Shown piece after piece: positions 1,304 to 11,320 of a DNA stretch of 64,000 bases (the first letter of the stretch is position 1; the number at the start of each line of letters is the position of its first letter). The stretch spans positions 62,001 through 126,000 of the forward strand of contig NZ_CP015453.1 in NCBI RefSeq assembly GCF_003096095.1, written 5' to 3'. The notes under the pieces are model-generated. The model was not told where the DNA came from. It ran no database searches and was given only the letters and a program-made list of their open reading frames with translations. The position numbers were made by a program, and so were the translations under genes. This DNA comes from Dietzia psychralcaliphila. GTDB lineage: Bacteria > Actinomycetota > Actinomycetes > Mycobacteriales > Mycobacteriaceae.

Positions 1304-1807
1304 CTAGAAGAAGTTCATCCCAGAGGAGATGAGGGCCGGCCCCTCGCTGACAATGCTCCCCATGGGGTTCTCGGCGCCACCGACGGCGATGGTCCTGGTG
1401 ACCGGGACGTTGTCCGTGGCGCAGTAGGTGATGAGCGAATGCACGCCGGTCGGGACGTCTTCGGCGGACAGGGTGACCGGACGGGTCACCACAGGGAAGG
1501 CGACGGGGTTGCCCGAGTCGGTACGCAGGACCGTGGTCCTCTCACCGGAGAGAGTGCCGACGATGTTGTCCAAGCTGATGTTCTTGATCATGTCGGCTAT
1601 GCCCTGGGCATCGTCGCGCTCGGCGATCACGGCGACGCATCCGTCGACGGGGGCGGTGAGCCCGGCCTTGAAGGTGGCCGAGACGGCGTTCCCGTCGACG
1701 TTGTAGCTGGCGGTGGCTGCAGAGGCGATACCGGCGGCGCCGACGGTGACCGCCGCGGAGGCGGCTAGGGCTGCGGCGACACGCGTGGCGATTCGAGAAA
1801 AACTCAT
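1304..1807 (-). CDS. small secreted protein of unknown function
   Basis: A 167-residue protein with a clear Sec signal peptide: charged start MSFSRIATR, an alanine-rich core, and probable cleavage after GIASAA near residue 31. The mature part is a beta-rich sequence with two cysteines (VDGCVAV and ITYCATD) that could form a disulfide, and it ends in SSGMNFF. The start has AGGAGCT about 5-10 bases upstream on the minus strand. It lies downstream of the giant Ig-like gene but has a 200-base gap and its own terminator, so it may be separate. I do not recognise the family; a surface or extracellular role is inferred from the signal peptide and neighbours. Confidence 0.8.
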   Translation of the reverse strand: MSFSRIATRVAAALAASAAVTVGAAGIASAATASYNVDGNAVSATFKAGLTAPVDGCVAVIAERDDAQGIADMIKNISLDNIVGTLSGERTTVLRTDSGNPVAFPVVTRPVTLSAEDVPTGVHSLITYCATDNVPVTRTIAVGGAENPMGSIVSEGPALISSGMNFF

Positions 1808-1964
1808 GGGAGCTCCTGGTGAGTGGGTGGGTGCAGGGTGGAAATGGTCGTGGCCCTCCGGCGACGGAGCCGGTTCGGACTGGCGAATAGTGCGCGGGCG
1901 GGACTCGTCGGCCTCACCGTCCTTGTTCTCTATCGGGAGCCCGCTGGTCGCACGAGCGGAATTT

Positions 1965-2003
1965 CGGTTCGTCCCTGCGGCAGCAGGCAGCGGGGACGAA
2001 CCG
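1965..2003 (-). terminator. terminator of the giant Ig-like gene
   Basis: A 13-bp stem (1965-1977 with 1991-2003, one mismatch) closes a 13-base loop five bases beyond the stop codon of the minus-strand gene. Confidence 0.7.
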
Positions 2004-2008
2004 GGCCT

Positions 2009-5000
2009 CTAGCTGCCCAGCGACCCGAGCGAGACCGCGCTGTGCAGGCCCACGCCGGCCGAGCCTATCGAGCCGATCAGCCCGATCAGCCCGATCAGGC
2101 TGAGTGAACCGGCGGCCGGCACTCCCGGATCGGTCCCGGGGTCCGATTCGTCGGTCACGGTGAGCGTCTCGGTGGCGGTGCTCGGAGCGTAGGCCTCGGG
2201 ATCCGTCGGGAGGAACTCGGCCCGGACCGTGTAGCTGCCACGCTCCCCGGCGACGTGGACCAGGGTGGCGACGCCGTCGATCACCGGAACGATCCGCTCG
2301 ACGCCGTCGATTGTGAAGCGGACGGTTCCCTCGGCGTCGGCGGGGTCCACTGTGGCGGTGAGGGTGACCTCCGCGCCCGCCTCGGCCGTCCCGGAGTCGA
2401 GCGCGAGGCTCGTGACCTCAGCGACGGCGTCGGCCTGCACCACCACGGCGCGGGTGTCGGTGCTGCCGCTGTAGCGGTCCGTGTCGGACGGGATGAAGGT
2501 CGCGGTGATGCTCAGCTGGCCTGCCGCGGTGGCGGGGAGCTCAGTCACTGCGACGCCATCCGTACCGACGGGAACCCTGATGCTGGTGCCCCCGGCGGTG
2601 AACTCGATCTCGCCCCCGACACCGGCCGGCGTAACGCTGGCCGTGGCCGTCACAGTCTCGCCGACGGTCACCTCGGCAGCATCCAGCGTGAGCGCGGTGT
2701 GGGTGGCCTCGGCATCGACGTTGACGGTCTCCGTGTCTGAGCTCGTGGTGTAGCGCTCGCTGTCGACGGGGACAAAGGTGGCGGTGATGGTCCCTGTTCC
2801 GGCTGCCTCGGTGGTGAAGTCCGCGGTGGCGGTGCCGTTGCTGACCGTGACGGTCTGGGTCTGGTCGCCGTAGTCGAAGCGAACGTGGCCGTTCGCGTCG
2901 GCCGGGGTGACGTTGGCGGTGGCGGTGATGGCGCCGCCCGCGGTGATCTGGACCGGGTCGAGTGTGAGTGCGGTGGTGGTGGTTTCTACCTCGACGTCGA
3001 CCGTCGCCTGGGCCGCGCTGCCGCTGTAGCGGTCAGTGTTGGCCGGGGTGAAGGTCGCTCCGACCGGGTACGTGCCTGCGGCGGTGAAGGTGTGGTCAAG
3101 GGTGGCCACGCCGTCGCTCACGGTGGCGGCGTACTCATCGTTGCCGATGGTGAAGGTCACGGTGCCGGCCGCGCCTGCCGGAGTGACGGTGGCGGTCAGT
3201 GTGGTGTCCTCACCGGCGCGGGGGTCGGCCCCCACGGTGAGCTCCGTCTGGGTGGCCTCGGCCTCGACGTTGACCGTCTCCGCGTCGGAGCTGGTGCTGT
3301 AGCGGTTCGGGTCGGTGGGCAGGAAGGTCGCGGTGACGGTGTCTGTTCCGGCTGCCTCGGTGGTGAAGTCCACGGTGGCGGTGCCGTTGCTGACCGTGAT
3401 GGATTGCGTCTGGTCGCCGTAGTCGAAGCGAACGTGGCCGTCTGCGTCGGCCGGGGTGATGGTGGCGGTGGCGGTGATGGTGCCGCCGGCAGTGACCTGG
3501 ACCGGGTCGAGTGTGAGTGCGGTCTGGGTTGCCGCCGCGGTGATGTCGACGGTCTGGGTGTCACTGCTGCCGCTGTATCGCTCCAAGTTGGCCGGGATGA
3601 AGGTGGCGGTGACGGTCAACTGTCCGGCAGCCTCGGCCGGGAGCACGGTGGTGGCCGTACCGTCGGCGCCCACGGGGACGCTGATGGTGGTCTCGCCGTC
3701 GGTGAACTCGATTTCACCCCCGGCGCCGGCCGGGGTCACGGTGGCCGTGGCCTGGATCATGTCTCCGGCGGTGACCTCGATCGCGTCAAGGGTCAGTTCG
3801 GTCTGGGTCGCCTCGGATTCCACGTTGACGGTGGCCTGGCCCCCGCTGGCGATGTAGCGGTTGGCATCGGTCGGGGTGAAGTGGGCGGTGACGGGATACT
3901 GGCCTGCGGTGGTGAAGGTGTGTTCCAGGGTGGCCACGCCGTTGACCACAGCCGCTGGGAGTTCCTGGCCGTCGATGGTGAAGGTGACGGTGCCCGCTGC
4001 GTTCGCCGGGGTGACGGTCGCGGTCAGCGTGGTCTCCTCGCCGGCGCGAACCGGATCGGCGTCGACGACGAGCGAGGTCGAGGTGGTGATCTGCTCGAGC
4101 ACGTTCACGGTCTGACTGTCCGAGCTGCCGGCGTAGCGCTCAGGGTCGGCAGGGATGAAGGTGGCCGTCACCGTCACCTGACCGGCGGCTGAAGTCGCGA
4201 GATCAGCGGCGGCGGTGCCATCAGCGCCCACGGGAACGCTGATGGTGGTGTCACCGGTGGCGAACTCGACTTCCCCCTCGGCGCCAGCGGGGGTGACACT
4301 TGCGGTTGCCCGGACAGTGCCCCCTTCGATGACCTCGGTCGAGTCCAGCGTGAGGCCGGTCTGGGTGGCCTCGGCGTTGATCCCGACTGTCTGGGTGTCA
4401 CTGCTTTCGGTGTAGCGCTCGGTGTCGTCCGGGAGGAAGGTGGCGGTGATGGTGCCCGTTCCGGCGTTGCCGGCGGTGAAGGTGGTGGTGGCCTGACCGT
4501 CGGTGACCTCGACGGTCTGGGTCTGGTCGCCGTAGTCGAAGCGGACCTCGCCGTCGGCGTCGGCCGGAGTGATCTGCGCGGTGGCGGTAATGGTCCCGCC
4601 TGCGCTGACCTCGACCGGGTCGAGGGCCAGGGTGGTCTGTGTTGTCTCCGCCTCGACGTTGACCGTCACCTGACCCGAGCTGGCCAGGTAGCGGTCGGTA
4701 TTGGTCGGGGTGAAGTCGGCGACGACGACGTGCTCGCCCGCAGTGGCGAAAGTGTGGTCGAGTGTCGCGGTGCCGTTCGTGACGGTCGCCGGGTAGGTCT
4801 GGTCGTCGATAACGAAGTCGACGGTCCCGGCTGCGGTCTCCGGAGAGACGGTCGCCGTCAGCGTGGTCTCCCGGCCGGCCCGGACCGGGTCCGCCTCCAC
4901 AGAAACCTCGGTCGAGGTCGAGGTCTGCTCGAACACGTCTACGGTCCGGCTGTCGCTGCTCTCGGTGTAGCGCTGTGGATTGGTCGGGATGAAGGTGGCG

Positions 5001-6061
5001 GTCACCGTCATCTCGCCCGTCGTATTGGCGGAGAGCTCGGCCGTGGCCGTGCCGTCGGCGCTGACGGGGACGATGGTGGTCGTGTTACCCGAGGCGAACT
5101 CGATCTCGCCCTCTGCGCCGGCCGGTGTGACGCTGGCGGAGGCCTGGACGGTGCCGCCTGCCAGGACCTCGACCGGATCGAGAGTCAGATCGGTCTGGGT
5201 GGCTTCGGTCTGCACTCGAACGGTTCCGGTGGCGTTGGAATTGTGCCACCTTGCCGAGGTGGTCGGACTGAACGATGCGGTCACCGGGAAGTTGCCGGCG
5301 GTATCGAATGTCGTTGTGGTGGTCGCAACGCCATTGCTGACGTTGGCGGAGAGATCCTGCCCACCGACAGCGAAATTCACCTGCCCGGTGGGGGTGTTGC
5401 TGCCCGCAGTGGAGTCGACGCGAGCCGTAAGGGTGACCTCTTCGCCAACGCGTATCACCGTGGGGCTGACGGACAGCGAGGTCCTAGTGCCGACCTGGGG
5501 AACGGTGAATCTCATGACGTTGTTCGTGGGGCCGTTCCAACTGCCGCCGGTCCCCAGGTGAGCCATGATTCCGAACTGGTAGGTGGTTCCGCCCTGCGTG
5601 TTCTCGGGGATCCGCATGGTCAGCCACCCGTCGCGAGTGCTACCTCGGCCCACCGACCGGTCGACGAGGCTGGGCTGCCCGCCCCAGAAGTTGTTCTGGG
5701 CTCGGCCGTGGTCGCCGACGCCGCCCATGTGATTTCCGCCGCCGCCGACACCCACAAACCCACTGGGCATCGTCACGCCGTAGGTGTTCAGGACCGATGG
5801 TGTGAAGGGAAATCCGGACTGGTGGTTACGCGCGAGCATGTTGATCCGAATCGTGGCGCCGGGCAGGCGGCTGTTTTCGGCGGTGGCGAGCGTCGCCGTG
5901 AAGTCGAAGTCGCCGAGACGGGTGGAACCCGACTGGGCTGAGGCCACAGGCGCGAGCCCGAGCACGAGCGCGAGCGCCGAAAGCATGACGATCGCGACTC
6001 GCGCGATTCGATTGGTCGGAACCGCGGTGCGAGACCGGGCTGGGCGGGTGTCAGTTGACAT
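2009..6061 (-). CDS. giant secreted Ig-like repeat surface protein
   Basis: A 1350-residue secreted protein. Residues 1-42 form a long signal peptide ending in PVASA. Residues 43-189 form an N-terminal domain with motifs NTYGVTMPSGF (about 92-102), FWGGQPS and GWLTMRIPE. About residues 190-1290 hold twelve Ig-like repeats of about 92 residues, and the C-terminus is a low-complexity tail ending SLGSLGS. I chose the ATG at 6061 because GGAG lies 8 bases upstream and the signal peptide follows at once; an upstream ATG at 6172 would add 37 residues before it. The repeats fall into three sequence classes. There are no catalytic motifs and no LPxTG anchor. It is probably an adhesin or envelope protein. 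The same N-terminal domain occurs in the 651-residue protein at 8914. Confidence 0.88.
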   Translation of the reverse strand: MSTDTRPARSRTAVPTNRIARVAIVMLSALALVLGLAPVASAQSGSTRLGDFDFTATLATAENSRLPGATIRINMLARNHQSGFPFTPSVLNTYGVTMPSGFVGVGGGGNHMGGVGDHGRAQNNFWGGQPSLVDRSVGRGSTRDGWLTMRIPENTQGGTTYQFGIMAHLGTGGSWNGPTNNVMRFTVPQVGTRTSLSVSPTVIRVGEEVTLTARVDSTAGSNTPTGQVNFAVGGQDLSANVSNGVATTTTTFDTAGNFPVTASFSPTTSARWHNSNATGTVRVQTEATQTDLTLDPVEVLAGGTVQASASVTPAGAEGEIEFASGNTTTIVPVSADGTATAELSANTTGEMTVTATFIPTNPQRYTESSDSRTVDVFEQTSTSTEVSVEADPVRAGRETTLTATVSPETAAGTVDFVIDDQTYPATVTNGTATLDHTFATAGEHVVVADFTPTNTDRYLASSGQVTVNVEAETTQTTLALDPVEVSAGGTITATAQITPADADGEVRFDYGDQTQTVEVTDGQATTTFTAGNAGTGTITATFLPDDTERYTESSDTQTVGINAEATQTGLTLDSTEVIEGGTVRATASVTPAGAEGEVEFATGDTTISVPVGADGTAAADLATSAAGQVTVTATFIPADPERYAGSSDSQTVNVLEQITTSTSLVVDADPVRAGEETTLTATVTPANAAGTVTFTIDGQELPAAVVNGVATLEHTFTTAGQYPVTAHFTPTDANRYIASGGQATVNVESEATQTELTLDAIEVTAGDMIQATATVTPAGAGGEIEFTDGETTISVPVGADGTATTVLPAEAAGQLTVTATFIPANLERYSGSSDTQTVDITAAATQTALTLDPVQVTAGGTITATATITPADADGHVRFDYGDQTQSITVSNGTATVDFTTEAAGTDTVTATFLPTDPNRYSTSSDAETVNVEAEATQTELTVGADPRAGEDTTLTATVTPAGAAGTVTFTIGNDEYAATVSDGVATLDHTFTAAGTYPVGATFTPANTDRYSGSAAQATVDVEVETTTTALTLDPVQITAGGAITATANVTPADANGHVRFDYGDQTQTVTVSNGTATADFTTEAAGTGTITATFVPVDSERYTTSSDTETVNVDAEATHTALTLDAAEVTVGETVTATASVTPAGVGGEIEFTAGGTSIRVPVGTDGVAVTELPATAAGQLSITATFIPSDTDRYSGSTDTRAVVVQADAVAEVTSLALDSGTAEAGAEVTLTATVDPADAEGTVRFTIDGVERIVPVIDGVATLVHVAGERGSYTVRAEFLPTDPEAYAPSTATETLTVTDESDPGTDPGVPAAGSLSLIGLIGLIGSIGSAGVGLHSAVSLGSLGS
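2150..5494 (-). repeat. twelve Ig-like repeats of about 276 bp
   Basis: Following the first, divergent repeat, the units can be sorted by their cores into class A (GEIEF...ISVPVGADGTA), class B (ADPVRAGEETTLTATV) and class C (HVRFDYGDQTQ). In protein order they read A B C A B A C B C A B. Class C copies are nearly identical at DNA level, for example around 2800-2890 and 3345-3435, indicating recent duplication or gene conversion. Confidence 0.85.
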
Positions 6062-6506
6062 CGAGAGACTCCGGACAGGTTCGGCGAGGGGAAGATTTGA
6101 GTGATCGGTAGTCGCGTCGATCCGGCCGGCTAGTGAGCGTGATCTCGACGAAGTAACGATCTTCATCCACATCTTAGCGGTAGAAACTCCTTAGTGAACC
6201 TATTTCGGTCAGGCTTCGAACGGTGAGTGACGATCGGGGACTCGTGATCGCAGTGGGCGGTCTGCGGAGTGCTTGGCTCGTTCGCGGAACGTCAAAGTGC
6301 CAGGTTGAGCGGACACAGTTAACGGAATGGGTACGCGATGCGACGTCCGGTACAACAGGTGTGGAGCAGCTGATGGACGAGCGTCCCCGTGGGAACGATT
6401 CGTCTCAGTTCCCTTGCGCGACTGAGAATGGCCTATATAGTCCGTTCAGACAGTTAGACAAGCGCCCAGCCCCTCCGGGCGCGCCCTCCCACATTCGAGG
6501 AATCTC
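6062..6506. promoter_or_regulatory. divergent promoter region of the Ig-like genes
   Basis: This 445-base region separates the minus-strand giant gene from the plus-strand pair and is less G+C-rich than its surroundings. It contains no convincing gene. A plausible plus-strand promoter (6414-6441) is listed separately. The minus-strand promoter could not be fixed. Confidence 0.6.
6414..6441 (+). promoter_or_regulatory. candidate promoter of the 794-residue Ig-like gene
   Basis: TTGCGC at 6414-6419 and TATAGT at 6436-6441 are separated by 16 bases. This would place transcription start about 60 bases upstream of the ATG at 6507, which has GAGGA at a good distance. Confidence 0.5.
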
Positions 6507-8891
6507 ATGCGCCGCGTTTTCGCGTGGTTCTCCGCCGTCGTCGTCACGCTCGGCGTCGCCACCGTCCCGACGGTGGCCACCGCTCAGACGTCCCGGTCAA
6601 CCACATCATTCGCCACCACCTGCTACATCGCCGCGCCCAGCGTCGCCGGGATGGGCGGACCGATGGACATCACCCCACAGAACCCGGTGCAGATCCATGT
6701 GACCGCCCCCGAGGCGGTCGACGTGGGCGACACCTTCGACGTGACGTTCGAGATCGATCCGATCAACGTCGCGCTCGACAGCCTTCCCTCGGCAGTCAGC
6801 CTTCAGAGAGCATCTCGACTCAAGCTGGATCTGCAGCGCCCTGCTGGAACCAAATTGCTCGGCTACAACTTCAGCGGCGGCAACATTCCCATCGCGGACG
6901 GTCAGGTAATCACGGTCAACGAGAGCGGCGCGCCCGATGCCAACGGCAACGTCCTTCGCCTGACCAACAGGGGCCACAACACGATTGGTAACGGCGGCAA
7001 CGTCTCGCAGTCGAGCCACGCTGGCCTCGGTATGAACTTGGCCGGAGCCAACTCGCTGGACTTCGAGTTCCCCCGGGTGACGCTCACCTTTGAGGCTGAA
7101 CGCGCCGGAAACGCCGCGATCGGTGTACGCACACAGGGCAACGCAGCAGGTTACGGACCGAACCCGGCAAGCTTCCTCACGCTGCTCGCGTCTGCGAGTG
7201 TGCCGCTTCTCGGTACGCAGTGGGTCCCCGGTTTTTGCAGCCCGAGAGGGTCGTCCACGGCGCCGATCGACCAGAATGCAGCGGCTATGAAGACCGTGGA
7301 GATCGTGGGTCTTCCCACCTCGGCCAGCCTCACCGGCCCCGACACCGTGTACCTGCGTACCCCTGCCGAGTTCATCGCCACCGTCGAGCCGAACATCCCG
7401 GGCGAGGTCACCTTTGTCAGCGGAGGCCAGCGCGTGACCGTCCCGGTATCTTCCGGCGAGGCTCGTGCGGAACTCACCTTCACCTCGCAGCCCGAAGGTC
7501 CGGTGCGCGCGATCTTCACCCCGACGGACCCCCGATACGCCACCGCGGTCTCTGAACTTCCGGTCACTGTGGAGCGACTCGCCACTGAAATGACCCTCAG
7601 CGCGCCCGCGACTGCGGACGCGAACACCCGAACCACGCTGTCGGTGAGCCTGCCCAGCGAGGCCCGTGGCACCGTCACTTTCACCGGGGGCGGTCAGGAG
7701 CGCACCGTGGATGTCCGTGACGGCCAGGCCACGACCAGCCTGACCTTCACCGAAGTCGGGCCCGCCGAGGTCGAAGCGGTGTTTACCCCTTCCGCGACTT
7801 CTGCCTACGCATCGGCCACGGCAACCGCCTCGATCGTCGTACAGGAGAGCACCAGCACCACGCTGGTCCTCAACGGGTTGGACACGCCGGCCTACGTAGC
7901 CGACCCGGTGACCTTCGAGGCCGTCATCAATCCGGCCGAGGGGACCGAGGACCCTCAGGGGCGGGTCGAGTTCATGGCCGGTTCGCAGACGCAGATCGTT
8001 GACGTCGTGGACGGACGCGCAAGCGCCGAGTTCGTCTTCGGACGTGCGGGCGATGTGGAGGTCTTCGCGACCTACCACCCGGCCGGGACCGAACAGTCCC
8101 GGGCAACCGACGCGGGGACACTCCAGATCCTCGACGCCGTCGCCACCGACTCGCAGCTGGTCGGGCCCGCCCGGGCCGAGCCCGGTGAGACCACCCCGTA
8201 CACGATCGTCGTCTCCCCGGCCGGGGCCGAAGGCGTGGCTGACGTGCGGATCGATGGCCGGGTCGTTGCCGCCGATGTGGCGATCGTCGACGGCGAGGGC
8301 CGCATCGACCTTGCGTTCCCACCAGCAGCCGCCACGGATCGACAGGTCGCTATCGAGTTCACCCCCACCGATATTCGGGTCCTCCGGCCGCACACCTCGG
8401 TGCACACGGTTCGGGTTGAGGCGTCGACGATCAACGAAGATGCACTGTCCATGACGGTGACCGGCCCCGATGGCGAAGTGCAGGCAGGAGAGACCACCGC
8501 GTTCCGCGTGGTGGTGGCTCCGACGGACGACACGGCCTCTTCGGCCACGCTTAACGGCTACCTCACGGTCAGCAACAACGGGGAGCCCGTTCTGGACGCC
8601 GAGGGCGAGCCGGTTCGGATCGCCGTGACCCGCGGCATCGCCGACGTGGACGTCACCTGGACCAGCGGGTACCCGCAGGCCAAGTTCCTCCAGTTCACCT
8701 ACCACGCCGCCGACGGGACAGAGCTGGTCTCCGGCGGGACCAACGTCACCGTCATCGGGGAAGGGACCGGCGGCGACGACGTCACCGTCAGCCCGGGACC
8801 CGGCGGAGGCTCGCTGGACCTCGGCTCCCTCATGGGCGATGGCGCCGGTTCACTCGATGCGGGCAGCCTGACCGGCTCGCTCGGCAGCTGA
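6507..8891 (+). CDS. secreted Ig-like repeat protein, 794 residues
   Basis: Residues 1-26 are a signal peptide (cleavage after VATA). Residues about 27-265 form an N-terminal domain with a conserved-looking core (VTAPEAVDVGDTFDVTFEI) and two cysteines (TTCYIA and PGFCSPR) that may pair. About five Ig-like repeats follow, with the VTF/VEF...FTPTD pattern seen in the giant protein. The tail is Gly/Ser/Leu-rich and ends in SLDAGSLTGSLGS. The start is ATG with GAGGA seven bases upstream. It is followed after 22 bases by the 651-residue gene, so the two are co-transcribed. Its N-terminal domain differs from that shared by its two neighbours. It is probably a cell-surface protein; no enzymatic motif was seen. 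Confidence 0.87.
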   Translation: MRRVFAWFSAVVVTLGVATVPTVATAQTSRSTTSFATTCYIAAPSVAGMGGPMDITPQNPVQIHVTAPEAVDVGDTFDVTFEIDPINVALDSLPSAVSLQRASRLKLDLQRPAGTKLLGYNFSGGNIPIADGQVITVNESGAPDANGNVLRLTNRGHNTIGNGGNVSQSSHAGLGMNLAGANSLDFEFPRVTLTFEAERAGNAAIGVRTQGNAAGYGPNPASFLTLLASASVPLLGTQWVPGFCSPRGSSTAPIDQNAAAMKTVEIVGLPTSASLTGPDTVYLRTPAEFIATVEPNIPGEVTFVSGGQRVTVPVSSGEARAELTFTSQPEGPVRAIFTPTDPRYATAVSELPVTVERLATEMTLSAPATADANTRTTLSVSLPSEARGTVTFTGGGQERTVDVRDGQATTSLTFTEVGPAEVEAVFTPSATSAYASATATASIVVQESTSTTLVLNGLDTPAYVADPVTFEAVINPAEGTEDPQGRVEFMAGSQTQIVDVVDGRASAEFVFGRAGDVEVFATYHPAGTEQSRATDAGTLQILDAVATDSQLVGPARAEPGETTPYTIVVSPAGAEGVADVRIDGRVVAADVAIVDGEGRIDLAFPPAAATDRQVAIEFTPTDIRVLRPHTSVHTVRVEASTINEDALSMTVTGPDGEVQAGETTAFRVVVAPTDDTASSATLNGYLTVSNNGEPVLDAEGEPVRIAVTRGIADVDVTWTSGYPQAKFLQFTYHAADGTELVSGGTNVTVIGEGTGGDDVTVSPGPGGGSLDLGSLMGDGAGSLDAGSLTGSLGS

Positions 8892-8913
8892 CGGCCAGGA
8901 AAAGGACACAATC

Positions 8914-10869
8914 ATGCTTCGTAAACTCGTCGTCGCCCTATCGGCGATAGCCCTGGTGGTGGGACTGGCTCCCACTGCAGCGGCGCAGAACACCGGATCC
9001 GTTCGCATCGGTGACTTCACCTTTAACGCCTCCATCAACTCGGGTCAGAGCCAGCTCCGCCCCGGTGGGCACGTTCGAATTGATCTCACCGCCACCAACA
9101 CGCATGGTGAATGGCAAGGTTGGCCACCTGCTGCCCCGGCCCGGGTTCTGAACACCTACGGGGTGACTATGCCGAGTGGATTCACGGGTCTATCCGGCGG
9201 CGGCTCCAATATGACCAACCTTGGTGACCATAGCCAAGCCAACTACTGGGGTGGGCAGCCGAGCGCGACTGATCGATTAGTCAATCGCGATAGCTCTCGC
9301 TCCGGCTGGCTCAGCGTCCGCATTCCCGAGGACGCCCAAGGGGGGAGCACCCATCAGTTCGGGCTCCGCGCCAATCTGGAAACTCTCCAGAACTGGCAAC
9401 CGACCCGCGAGAATGTCATTCGTTTCACGCTGCCGGCGGTGGCCACCAACACCTCGGTGACCGCCAACCCCGCCACCGTGGAGGAGGGCACCAACACCAC
9501 GCTGACCGCCGACGTGTCCGCGGTCCACGGCAGCAACGGCGTCACCGCCGGTGACATTGTGTTCGAGGTGAACGGCACCTCGGTCGGATCCGCGCCGGTC
9601 GGACCGGACGGTAGGGCGAGCATCCCGTATACGGTGCCGCTACTGGACAACCGGGACCCGATCACGCAGAACGTCACGGCCCGCTATTCGGGTGATGCAC
9701 CGAGGTTCGCCGCCTCAACCTCCACCACGACCGTCCGGATCGAGCCCGAGGCGAAATCCGAGGTCACCAGCACTGTCGACCTGGCCGCGACGCGTGGACT
9801 GGTCGAGAACGGACGACTACCGGTTACGCTCGACGTGGCGATCGACACGAGTGACGGTCTGGACCTACCCGAGGGCGCCGAGGTCGAGATCCTGCGCGAC
9901 GGCGTCGTCGTCGACACTCTCGCCGTCGACGGGGTCACGGCAACCTTCACCGATGACCTCGACGCCACCACCGACGCGACCTACGTCTATACGGTCCGTC
10001 TGCTGGAGACGGAGACCTACGACACCATTTACCGCTCGGCGGAATCCGAACCGGTGGAAGTGGAGGTCGCACCCGAGGTCACGCCCGAGGTGACGGTAGG
10101 CGTCGACTCGGCCGCCGTTCTCATCGGACGCGCCGTCGACATCACCGCCACGGTGACTGCAGACGGAACCCCGCTGCCGGCCGGCACCGTGGTGTCCATC
10201 CGGTCCAACGGTCGTGACATCGGTACCGTCACGACCGACGACGACGGCAACGCGGTCCTGGCCGGCCACGAGTTCGACACCCCCGGTGACAAGCGCATCG
10301 TCGCCGTGTTCGACGGTGGCCGGATTGGCGGCACCACCTACGGTGCCGTCACCTCCGCCCCCGCCACGGTGACGGTCGAGGCGCTGCCCGAGATCGACAC
10401 GGGCACCACCATCGAGTTGGAGACGGTGGCCACCGCAGGCGACGAGGTCACCATCACAGCCGTGGTGTCCCGCCTCGACGGAGGGGACCTCACCGACGCG
10501 GGAACCGAGAACCTCGGCTCTGTGTGGTTCTTCCGGGACGGGGACGCAATCGGCTCGGCTCCGGTCGTGATTGACACGGTCACCGGTGAGGCGACCGCGG
10601 TGTTCACCCACCGGTTCGCCGAACGCGGAGAATTCCGGATCACGGCCGACTACTCCGGTGCGTCCGGCTCGGACGAGGTGATCGCCCCGTCCGAGACCAC
10701 CGAGGCGACCGTGGTGACGGTGTCGCCGTCCGACATCGTCATCGACGAGCCGGGGCCGCCGTCCAACGAGCTCGAATTGAGCTTCGGCTCCCTCGATCTG
10801 GGTAGCGTCATGGACGCGATAGGAGAAGAAGGTCTGAGCAGCCTGGGAGGCCTGGTCGGTGGGAACTGA
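8914..10869 (+). CDS. secreted Ig-like protein, paralogue of the giant protein
   Basis: A 651-residue secreted protein. The signal peptide ends after PTAAA (residue 24). Residues 25 to about 175 are clearly homologous to residues 43-189 of the giant minus-strand protein: both carry NTYGVTMPSGF, a W-G-G-Q-P-S motif and GWLxxRIPExxQGG. About four diverged Ig-like repeats follow. The tail (SFGSLDLGSV...SSLGGLVGGN) has the Leu-Gly-Ser character of its neighbours. The start has AAAGGA about 10 bases upstream. It is the second gene of the plus-strand pair and ends before a hairpin terminator. A role in surface assembly or adhesion is inferred only from architecture. Confidence 0.87.
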   Translation: MLRKLVVALSAIALVVGLAPTAAAQNTGSVRIGDFTFNASINSGQSQLRPGGHVRIDLTATNTHGEWQGWPPAAPARVLNTYGVTMPSGFTGLSGGGSNMTNLGDHSQANYWGGQPSATDRLVNRDSSRSGWLSVRIPEDAQGGSTHQFGLRANLETLQNWQPTRENVIRFTLPAVATNTSVTANPATVEEGTNTTLTADVSAVHGSNGVTAGDIVFEVNGTSVGSAPVGPDGRASIPYTVPLLDNRDPITQNVTARYSGDAPRFAASTSTTTVRIEPEAKSEVTSTVDLAATRGLVENGRLPVTLDVAIDTSDGLDLPEGAEVEILRDGVVVDTLAVDGVTATFTDDLDATTDATYVYTVRLLETETYDTIYRSAESEPVEVEVAPEVTPEVTVGVDSAAVLIGRAVDITATVTADGTPLPAGTVVSIRSNGRDIGTVTTDDDGNAVLAGHEFDTPGDKRIVAVFDGGRIGGTTYGAVTSAPATVTVEALPEIDTGTTIELETVATAGDEVTITAVVSRLDGGDLTDAGTENLGSVWFFRDGDAIGSAPVVIDTVTGEATAVFTHRFAERGEFRITADYSGASGSDEVIAPSETTEATVVTVSPSDIVIDEPGPPSNELELSFGSLDLGSVMDAIGEEGLSSLGGLVGGN

Positions 10870-10928: not shown

Positions 10929-11320
10929 TCTCTTGATCGAGTCACCACGGGTGCCAACCGGGCGGCTTTCCCCTACGGCGCGCAGGCTTGTGTCTCCAAC
11001 CTGAATCGGGTTCAATTGTTGGCGTGACGTAGGCTCACGCAGAAGTTCTCCCGAGGTCGGCGCCACCATGCCGACGCTCCGGAGAGCGAGGCAATCCCGG
11101 TGGACGGAGCAGAGATCACCCTCTCGCCCGCGCCACCCGTGAGCTCGCATCCCACGGTTGGTATCCCACAGCTCGGATCCCACCGGTGCCCGGCGTGATC
11201 GGCGGACCATCCCACGCCGGGACCCGGACACGATGTAATGAACGGACATTGTCTGAGTCGGCGCACGCGCGTCGGCTCGCCACAACGCTGTCGAACCACA
11301 ACGCTGTCGAAGGAACCCCA
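10929..11320 (+). promoter_or_regulatory. leader region of pntAB with a 16-bp tandem repeat
   Basis: No gene is evident in these 392 bases. Two adjacent identical copies of CCACAACGCTGTCGAA occupy 11280-11295 and 11296-11311, directly before the AAGGA ribosome site (11310-11314) of pntA. The promoter itself could not be assigned. Confidence 0.5.

Follow-up and report, generated by a model that had tools for sequence, protein, structure and literature searches.

Sortase-anchored adhesins with immunoglobulin (Ig)-like repeats are built of a head, an Ig stalk and a C-terminal anchor. How proteins are targeted to the mycolic-acid outer membrane, or mycomembrane, is an open question. In Corynebacterium glutamicum, one report describes O-mycoloylation by the enzyme Cmt1 at clustered serines of flexible segments, with Gly, Ala and Ser close by; the modified set includes hydrolases and mycoloyltransferases, and the modification is thought to direct proteins to the mycomembrane (PMC11066868). 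About 27 C-terminal residues of PS2 anchor that protein in the mycomembrane, according to another report (PMC12337289). Here we describe a window of 64,000 nucleotides (nt) from Dietzia psychralcaliphila (NZ_CP015453.1; all positions are window coordinates), in which four genes in the order D (-), A (-), B (+) and C (+) form a block spanning 1304-10869. Proteins A, B and C share a Gly-Ser-Leu (GSL) tail at their C-termini, and the locus is thereby a test case for mycomembrane targeting. We read the three as secreted head-stalk-anchor surface proteins that would be held in the mycomembrane by a portable tail, with A and C as variable adhesins and B as a constant partner in a cassette with D, and we hold this explanation with belief and doubt evenly balanced. 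The genes and their parts are as follows.

1304-1807, minus strand: gene D, a small secreted-type protein of 167 amino acids (aa), downstream of A
2009-6061, minus strand: gene A, a giant protein of 1350 aa with signal peptide, head, Big_3_5 Ig stalk and GSL tail
5489-5932, minus strand: head domain of A, from alignment; 55% identical to that of C
2012-2113, minus strand: C-terminal GSL tail of A, ending SLGSLGS
6507-8891, plus strand: gene B, 794 aa, with signal peptide, a head of its own, stalk and GSL tail
6606-7244, plus strand: head domain of B, between the protein's only two cysteines (39 and 244), from alignments and cysteine positions
8805-8888, plus strand: C-terminal tail of B (GSLDLGSLMGDGAGSLDAGSLTGSLGS)
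8914-10869, plus strand: gene C, 651 aa, with signal peptide, A-type head, Big_3_5 Ig stalk and GSL tail
8989-9444, plus strand: head domain of C, from alignment, by similarity to A
10786-10866, plus strand: C-terminal tail of C, a looser form (GSLDLGSVMDAIGEEGLSSLGGLVGGN) that lacks the GSLGS end

The tail is the broader feature of these proteins, and an earlier note on this DNA did not mention it. Among 22 A/B/C-type proteins, 21 have two to five GS[LIVMFA] motifs in their last 60 residues versus 0 to 4 across the remainder of each, the 22nd being cut by a contig end. At least three G[ST][LIVMFA] motifs in the last 40 residues are found only in A and B among the 260 window open reading frames (ORFs) of at least 90 aa. 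In none of the proteins scanned did a Pfam or NCBIfam model cover the tail, and no LPxTG-type sortase signal is present within the final 70 residues of the three proteins; the sequence of A contains a single LPATA match. All six B-type proteins of genome G283 end in FGS or GSLGS. In the two B relatives of G386, a run of Ser or a hydrophobic segment takes the place of the tail, and this exchange of endings suggests an anchoring role for it. Genome G008 has a three-gene row with GS-rich C-termini (L088:942-6371), whose products are a GH5 glycoside hydrolase, an Ig protein with Big_3_5 repeats and a protein of the B type.

The same ending is found on secreted proteins of other families. In the D. 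psychralcaliphila genome, 6 of the 16 places matching a loose GSLGS-stop DNA pattern end long frames, namely A, B, a sulfatase (PF00884), a CHAP protein (PF05257), PhoX and one protein without a Pfam match, so four of the six are unrelated to A-C. Frames of at least 150 codons ending in GSLGS were read at 18 of the 28 Dietzia loci listed and at none of the 30 loci taken from the order's other families (Fisher p 2.9e-8, with rows that are not independent). By reading, the 18 frames represent about 12 families, with PhoX counted three times, and include an M23 peptidase, a PF00756 esterase and a metallopeptidase as well as PhoX. The DNA patterns also admit Trp and some non-Ser codons. The Dietzia misses include five Trp cases and two frames of 223 codons ending GSLGR (L131 and L132), in addition to one of 64 codons (L125) and two loci without a frame (L124 and L127). 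The 30 controls likewise include 16 Trp cases and two frames ending GSLGW (L099 and L103, 197 and 225 codons); two others (L100 and L106, 115 and 116 codons) end in GSLGS, yet fall under the 150-codon limit. A GS-rich extension of PhoX is present at all six readable Dietzia loci and at 0 of 11 readable loci of other genera, after exclusion of 3/9 Dietzia loci and 10/21 others in which the longest frame was another one.

These counts bear on the possibility that the tail is low-complexity drift at secreted C-termini with no sorting role. Its residues are small and simple, and enrichment by DNA count (given below) is weak, as drift would have it. Against this stand the same short ending on unrelated families within one genus, its absence from all 30 loci of other families, and a PhoX extension confined to Dietzia among readable loci, and we regard drift as very improbable.

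For the other genera of the family, 11 GSLGS-stop places from 10 genomes were read; no tail-ended secreted protein was seen among them, and several of the places resemble antisense frames. A related [LI]FGS pattern was followed at 30 loci from 201 genomes, and 13 of these are frames of at least 150 codons so ended, distributed over genera g9 (6), g43 (5), g5 (1) and g40 (1) of the family. Eight of the remaining loci have Trp codons rather than stops (including 5/5 loci of genus g37) and nine are short frames; among the latter, L184 (37 codons) and L188 (44 codons) retain the ending GSLGS[IL]FGS. One protein of genus g9 (L172) ends in a long GSLGSSGSLGSS repeat followed by GSLGSLFGS. We propose, as a tentative extension that we rate below an even chance, that the GSL tail may be a general sorting signal of mycolic-acid bacteria, with the form GSLxxGSLGS in Dietzia or GSLGS[LI]FGS in other genera, whose serines would be mycolated and which would fix unrelated enzymes and Ig-stalk adhesins alike in the mycomembrane.

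By eye, the tails of A, B and C fit a Ser-rich, Gly/Ala-flanked flexible segment of a secreted protein, as described in the C. glutamicum report (PMC11066868). Candidate enzymes are encoded in the same genome, which has seven PF00756 matches: the best Protein Data Bank (PDB) match of L224 is Cmt1 (E 6.2e-38), while the top match is PS1 for L225 and Ag85 for L221. Four of these mycoloyltransferase-like proteins (L221, L222, L224 and L225) themselves show, on visual inspection, Gly/Ser-rich, tail-like stretches close to one terminus or both termini of the mature protein. We infer that the tail is a mycomembrane anchor, and possibly a site of serine O-mycoloylation.

An anchor that works without acylation, by insertion into the mycomembrane or by binding a wall partner, would leave head-stalk display unchanged. 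PS2, with its hydrophobic C-terminus, provides the precedent (PMC12337289). The best 19-residue hydropathy value within the last 60 residues is fairly high in A (1.86), Lys and Arg are missing from the final 30 residues of all three proteins, and one G386 protein has a hydrophobic segment in place of the tail. On the other side, the tails of B and C are weakly hydrophobic (0.51 and 0.71) and repeated serine is the constant feature. The Dietzia tail would fit O-mycoloylation or a plain insertion anchor alike, and we judge the non-acylated anchor unlikely, yet clearly less so than drift. In the explanation we prefer, the tail would most likely be held by serine O-mycoloylation through a Cmt1/MytC-like enzyme, or else by direct insertion.

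At the other end of the proteins, residues 3-174 of C align with A at 55% identity (E 8.6e-51), giving a head of about 150 residues behind the signal peptide. This bears out the earlier note, which had described about 150 N-terminal residues shared by the giant and the 651-residue protein after their signal peptides; the ORFs lie where it placed them, and the motifs it named (NTYGVTMPSGF, WGGQPS and GWLxxRIPExxQGG) are present in both. The ORF of A is 1387 aa long, and its relatives in G014 and G015 align only from ORF residue 38, so we take the gene as 2009-6061 (-), encoding 1350 aa; residues 43-189, given previously for the shared region of the giant protein, agree with this corrected start. 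The signal peptides of A and C were recognized by eye.

The A/C head looks like a new domain family limited to the genus Dietzia, as judged by profile and family searches. Searching the source genome with the head returned two matches, A and C themselves. At E<=0.001 it occurs in 7 of 61 genomes, all within the 23 Dietzia and in none of 38 other relatives, and a 12-row profile matched 1 of 397 genomes of the order, again the source genome, in a search that scored nine first-look candidates per genome in the rows shown, so that remote relatives may escape. None of the 12 heads reached a curated Pfam cut-off (scan at E<=10); the best match, to Glyco_hydro_123_N_2 in 6/12 heads, is weak and sub-threshold (E 0.0065). 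The layout presumably resembles that of DUF11, and PF01345 is absent from the Pfam matches of the 12 heads. A PDB search gave two matches, the best at E 0.55. A single family uniting the A/C and B heads was rejected at the sensitivity of a profile comparison that gave it a probability of 0.3%.

The head of B, about 213 residues long, differs from that of A and C. It resembles DIP2116-like_N (PF22089), named after what we take to be a Corynebacterium diphtheriae protein, in 6 of 8 rows at E<=10 (best E 2.2e-4, below the Pfam cut-off); the window B head itself scores 11.9 bits (E 0.18) against a gathering cut-off of 27 bits, and a 13-row B-head set gave a best E of 0.0028. A weak match to PDB 3LSO, annotated as 'putative membrane anchored protein', has E 0.0043, or 0.018 with a broader alignment. 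The earlier description of both heads as unrecognized therefore stands for A and C and needs qualifying for B. B heads occur in 8 of 23 Dietzia genomes and, at E<=0.001, in 42 of 397 genomes of the order, mostly as partial and weak matches; those below 1e-10 are confined to the source genome, G283 (six matches) and G386 (two). A second, divergent B-type gene in the source genome (C1:3275125, E 2.1e-7; L084:5865-7451) has the end GSLGALTGSLGSLTGS.

Between head and tail, Big_3_5 (PF16640) matches A over 12 stretches (377.6 bits) and C over three (103.2 bits), both above the cut-off of 35.5. The Pfam scan gave no Big_3_5 match in B, whose stalk was recognized on visual inspection and from weak BLAST similarity to A. 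The Ig-like character claimed for these proteins is supported by Pfam in A and C and read less directly in B, and their surface location is the probable rather than the observed part of that claim. Pfam and NCBIfam scans of A-D found no enzyme, transporter or chaperone family and no catalytic family, which leaves the proposed envelope-assembly system without support.

In A and C the heads change faster than the stalks. Mean pairwise identity in A is 44% for the head versus 71% for the stalk, and 8 of 10 pairs have heads at 27-36% and first 400 stalk residues at 62-76%, the other two being higher in the head. In C the means are 61% and 74%; of 15 pairs, 13 are less alike in the head than in the stalk, one is equal and one is more alike in the head. 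B shows the reverse, with 81% for the head versus 73% for the stalk and a higher head in 15/15 pairs. The head tree is poorly resolved, with long branches and 7 of 9 inner branches open. Faster change in the A/C heads than in their stalks would fit what is expected of displayed binding heads under changing pressure.

Alternatively, the heads could be carbohydrate-binding or glycosidase-accessory modules for glycan feeding instead of adhesins for cells or surfaces. In the G008 gene row, a GH5 protein has an Ig protein and one of the B type as neighbours, and half of the 12 A/C heads have the Glyco_hydro_123_N_2 match. These matches are sub-threshold, however, the GH123_N domain is itself a beta-sandwich, which counts against this reading, and A-D lack a catalytic family. 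We consider a glycan-feeding role improbable, and an adhesin-like head-stalk-anchor role plausible from the domain build.

The explanation we prefer would run as follows. A signal peptide would export A, B and C; Ig-like repeats would hold the N-terminal head away from the cell; and the C-terminal tail would fix the protein in the mycolic-acid outer membrane, as a portable, lineage-specific sorting tail that Dietzia would also place on unrelated secreted enzymes. A and C would bind ligands as adhesins whose tips vary, B would be their constant partner, and all three would be moved together with D. Sequence shows directly how the proteins are built, that the A and C heads are related, that unrelated proteins carry the tail, that the heads diverge unequally, and the co-occurrence and relocation described below; surface location, anchor chemistry and adhesion we infer. 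Several points weigh against this explanation. The tail of C is a looser form. By count, the GSLGS-stop DNA pattern shows no clear enrichment, with 16 places versus 24 for controls under the loose form in the source genome and 60 versus 50 under a tighter form across the genus, although the tighter form gives 8 matches versus 2 in the source genome; DNA counts alone were rejected as proof of the tail. L222 scores PS1 (1.3e-38) and Cmt1 (3.2e-38) alike, which keeps a Cmt1-like enzyme a candidate, and in one open-access library 'mycoloyltransferase' and 'Dietzia' are paired in no paper beyond two listings. Relaxed constraint could give a like divergence of the heads. In the C. glutamicum report, O-mycoloylation sites follow no strict consensus (PMC11066868).

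The divergent A / B-C order recurs in five genomes (G000, G009, G010, G014 and G015), in line with the divergent pairing that the earlier note described, and the co-occurrence that it asked to have tested is borne out. Both head types are present in 7 of the 23 Dietzia genomes, the B type alone in one (G018, fragmentary) and neither in 15 (p 3.3e-5, uncorrected for kinship). B and C are 22-25 base pairs (bp) apart in 6/6 copies, and in the window 22 bp separate the stop of B from the start of C on the same strand. We conclude that B-C is likely an operon and that A is divergent from it; the third protein does lie between the other two and has its own head, as previously noted, and the operon would exclude A. 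In G008, B-C is present with no A found in the 11 kb before B, and G001 has one A-type and two B-type genes, all on one strand. D adjoins A in all three other copies where the contig extends far enough (G014, G010 and G015; 64-80% identity); it is unreachable in G009, whose contig stops inside A, and none was found in L019 of G008.

After C, transhydrogenase-like genes that we take to be pntA/pntB begin at 11186. No more than about 3 kb separates pntA from C in the window, G009, G010, G015 and G008. One contig of G014 carries pntA at 63 kb and the block at 2.84 Mb; this different location points to a relocatable cassette. In the six genomes examined that lack the block upstream of pntA (G002, G004, G012, G014, G016 and G017), likeness to the window starts at 10996-11310, just past C. 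D-A-B-C thus appears, from these comparisons, to move as one cassette. A Mutator-type transposase gene (PF00872, E 2e-78; 3-746, +), cut by the window start, adjoins it. A, B and C match one PHROG of unassigned function, phrog_33716 (B at E 1.9e-39 over residues 10-442). Searches by tblastn with the C head and the first 318 residues of B found nothing in 50,697 phage records or 72,556 plasmids, and a viral-contig scan with B heads found no relative, so a phage or plasmid origin is not supported despite the PHROG match. Anti-phage defence was also rejected, as A-D have no PADLOC match at E<=0.01.

Two promoter-like elements lie between A and B.

6171-6198, minus strand: possible promoter of A, TTCACT-N16-TAAGAT, weak; found by eye, poorly conserved and missed by the consensus scan
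6414-6441, plus strand: promoter-like element before B-C, TTGCGC-N16-TATAGT, 28 bp; found by conservation and missed by the consensus scan

No sigma-70 site emerged from the consensus scan, and its terminator matches were no more frequent than expected by chance, so it is conservation that supports the B-C element, which is kept in 5/5 full cassette copies and has no exact match in G008 (L013 and L019).

If the proposed role is true, the GSL tail would correspond, for an outer membrane that has no known targeting code, to the lipobox and sortase signals, being legible in sequence as they are, and its recurrence could allow part of the mycomembrane proteome to be predicted from sequence. The A/C heads would represent rapidly diverging tips borne by a stalk that is itself conserved, within a cassette that appears to relocate as a whole. 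Searches of one open-access library yielded nothing on the tail or on these Dietzia proteins, which is weak evidence of novelty.

Among known systems, Big_3_5 Ig-repeat surface proteins have their repeats in common with the stalks of A and C, which score above the cut-off, while the heads and tail are outside that family and B falls short of it. DIP2116-like_N and 3LSO have weak similarity to part of the B head, below the Pfam cut-off, and B has a GSL tail instead of a membrane helix. Sortase-anchored Ig adhesins have the same succession of head, Ig stalk and C-terminal anchor, but A, B and C are without their LPxTG-type signal in the last 70 residues. The O-mycoloylated proteins of C. glutamicum have serine clusters next to Gly and small residues, at their termini or in flexible regions, as do the tails; in contrast, no fixed tail motif is described for them (PMC11066868), and acylation in Dietzia would be the putative counterpart. 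PS2 is likewise anchored in the mycomembrane by its C-terminus of some 27 residues, but it is helical with a predicted transmembrane helix (PMC12337289), whereas A and C carry Ig repeats and tails rich in Gly and Ser.

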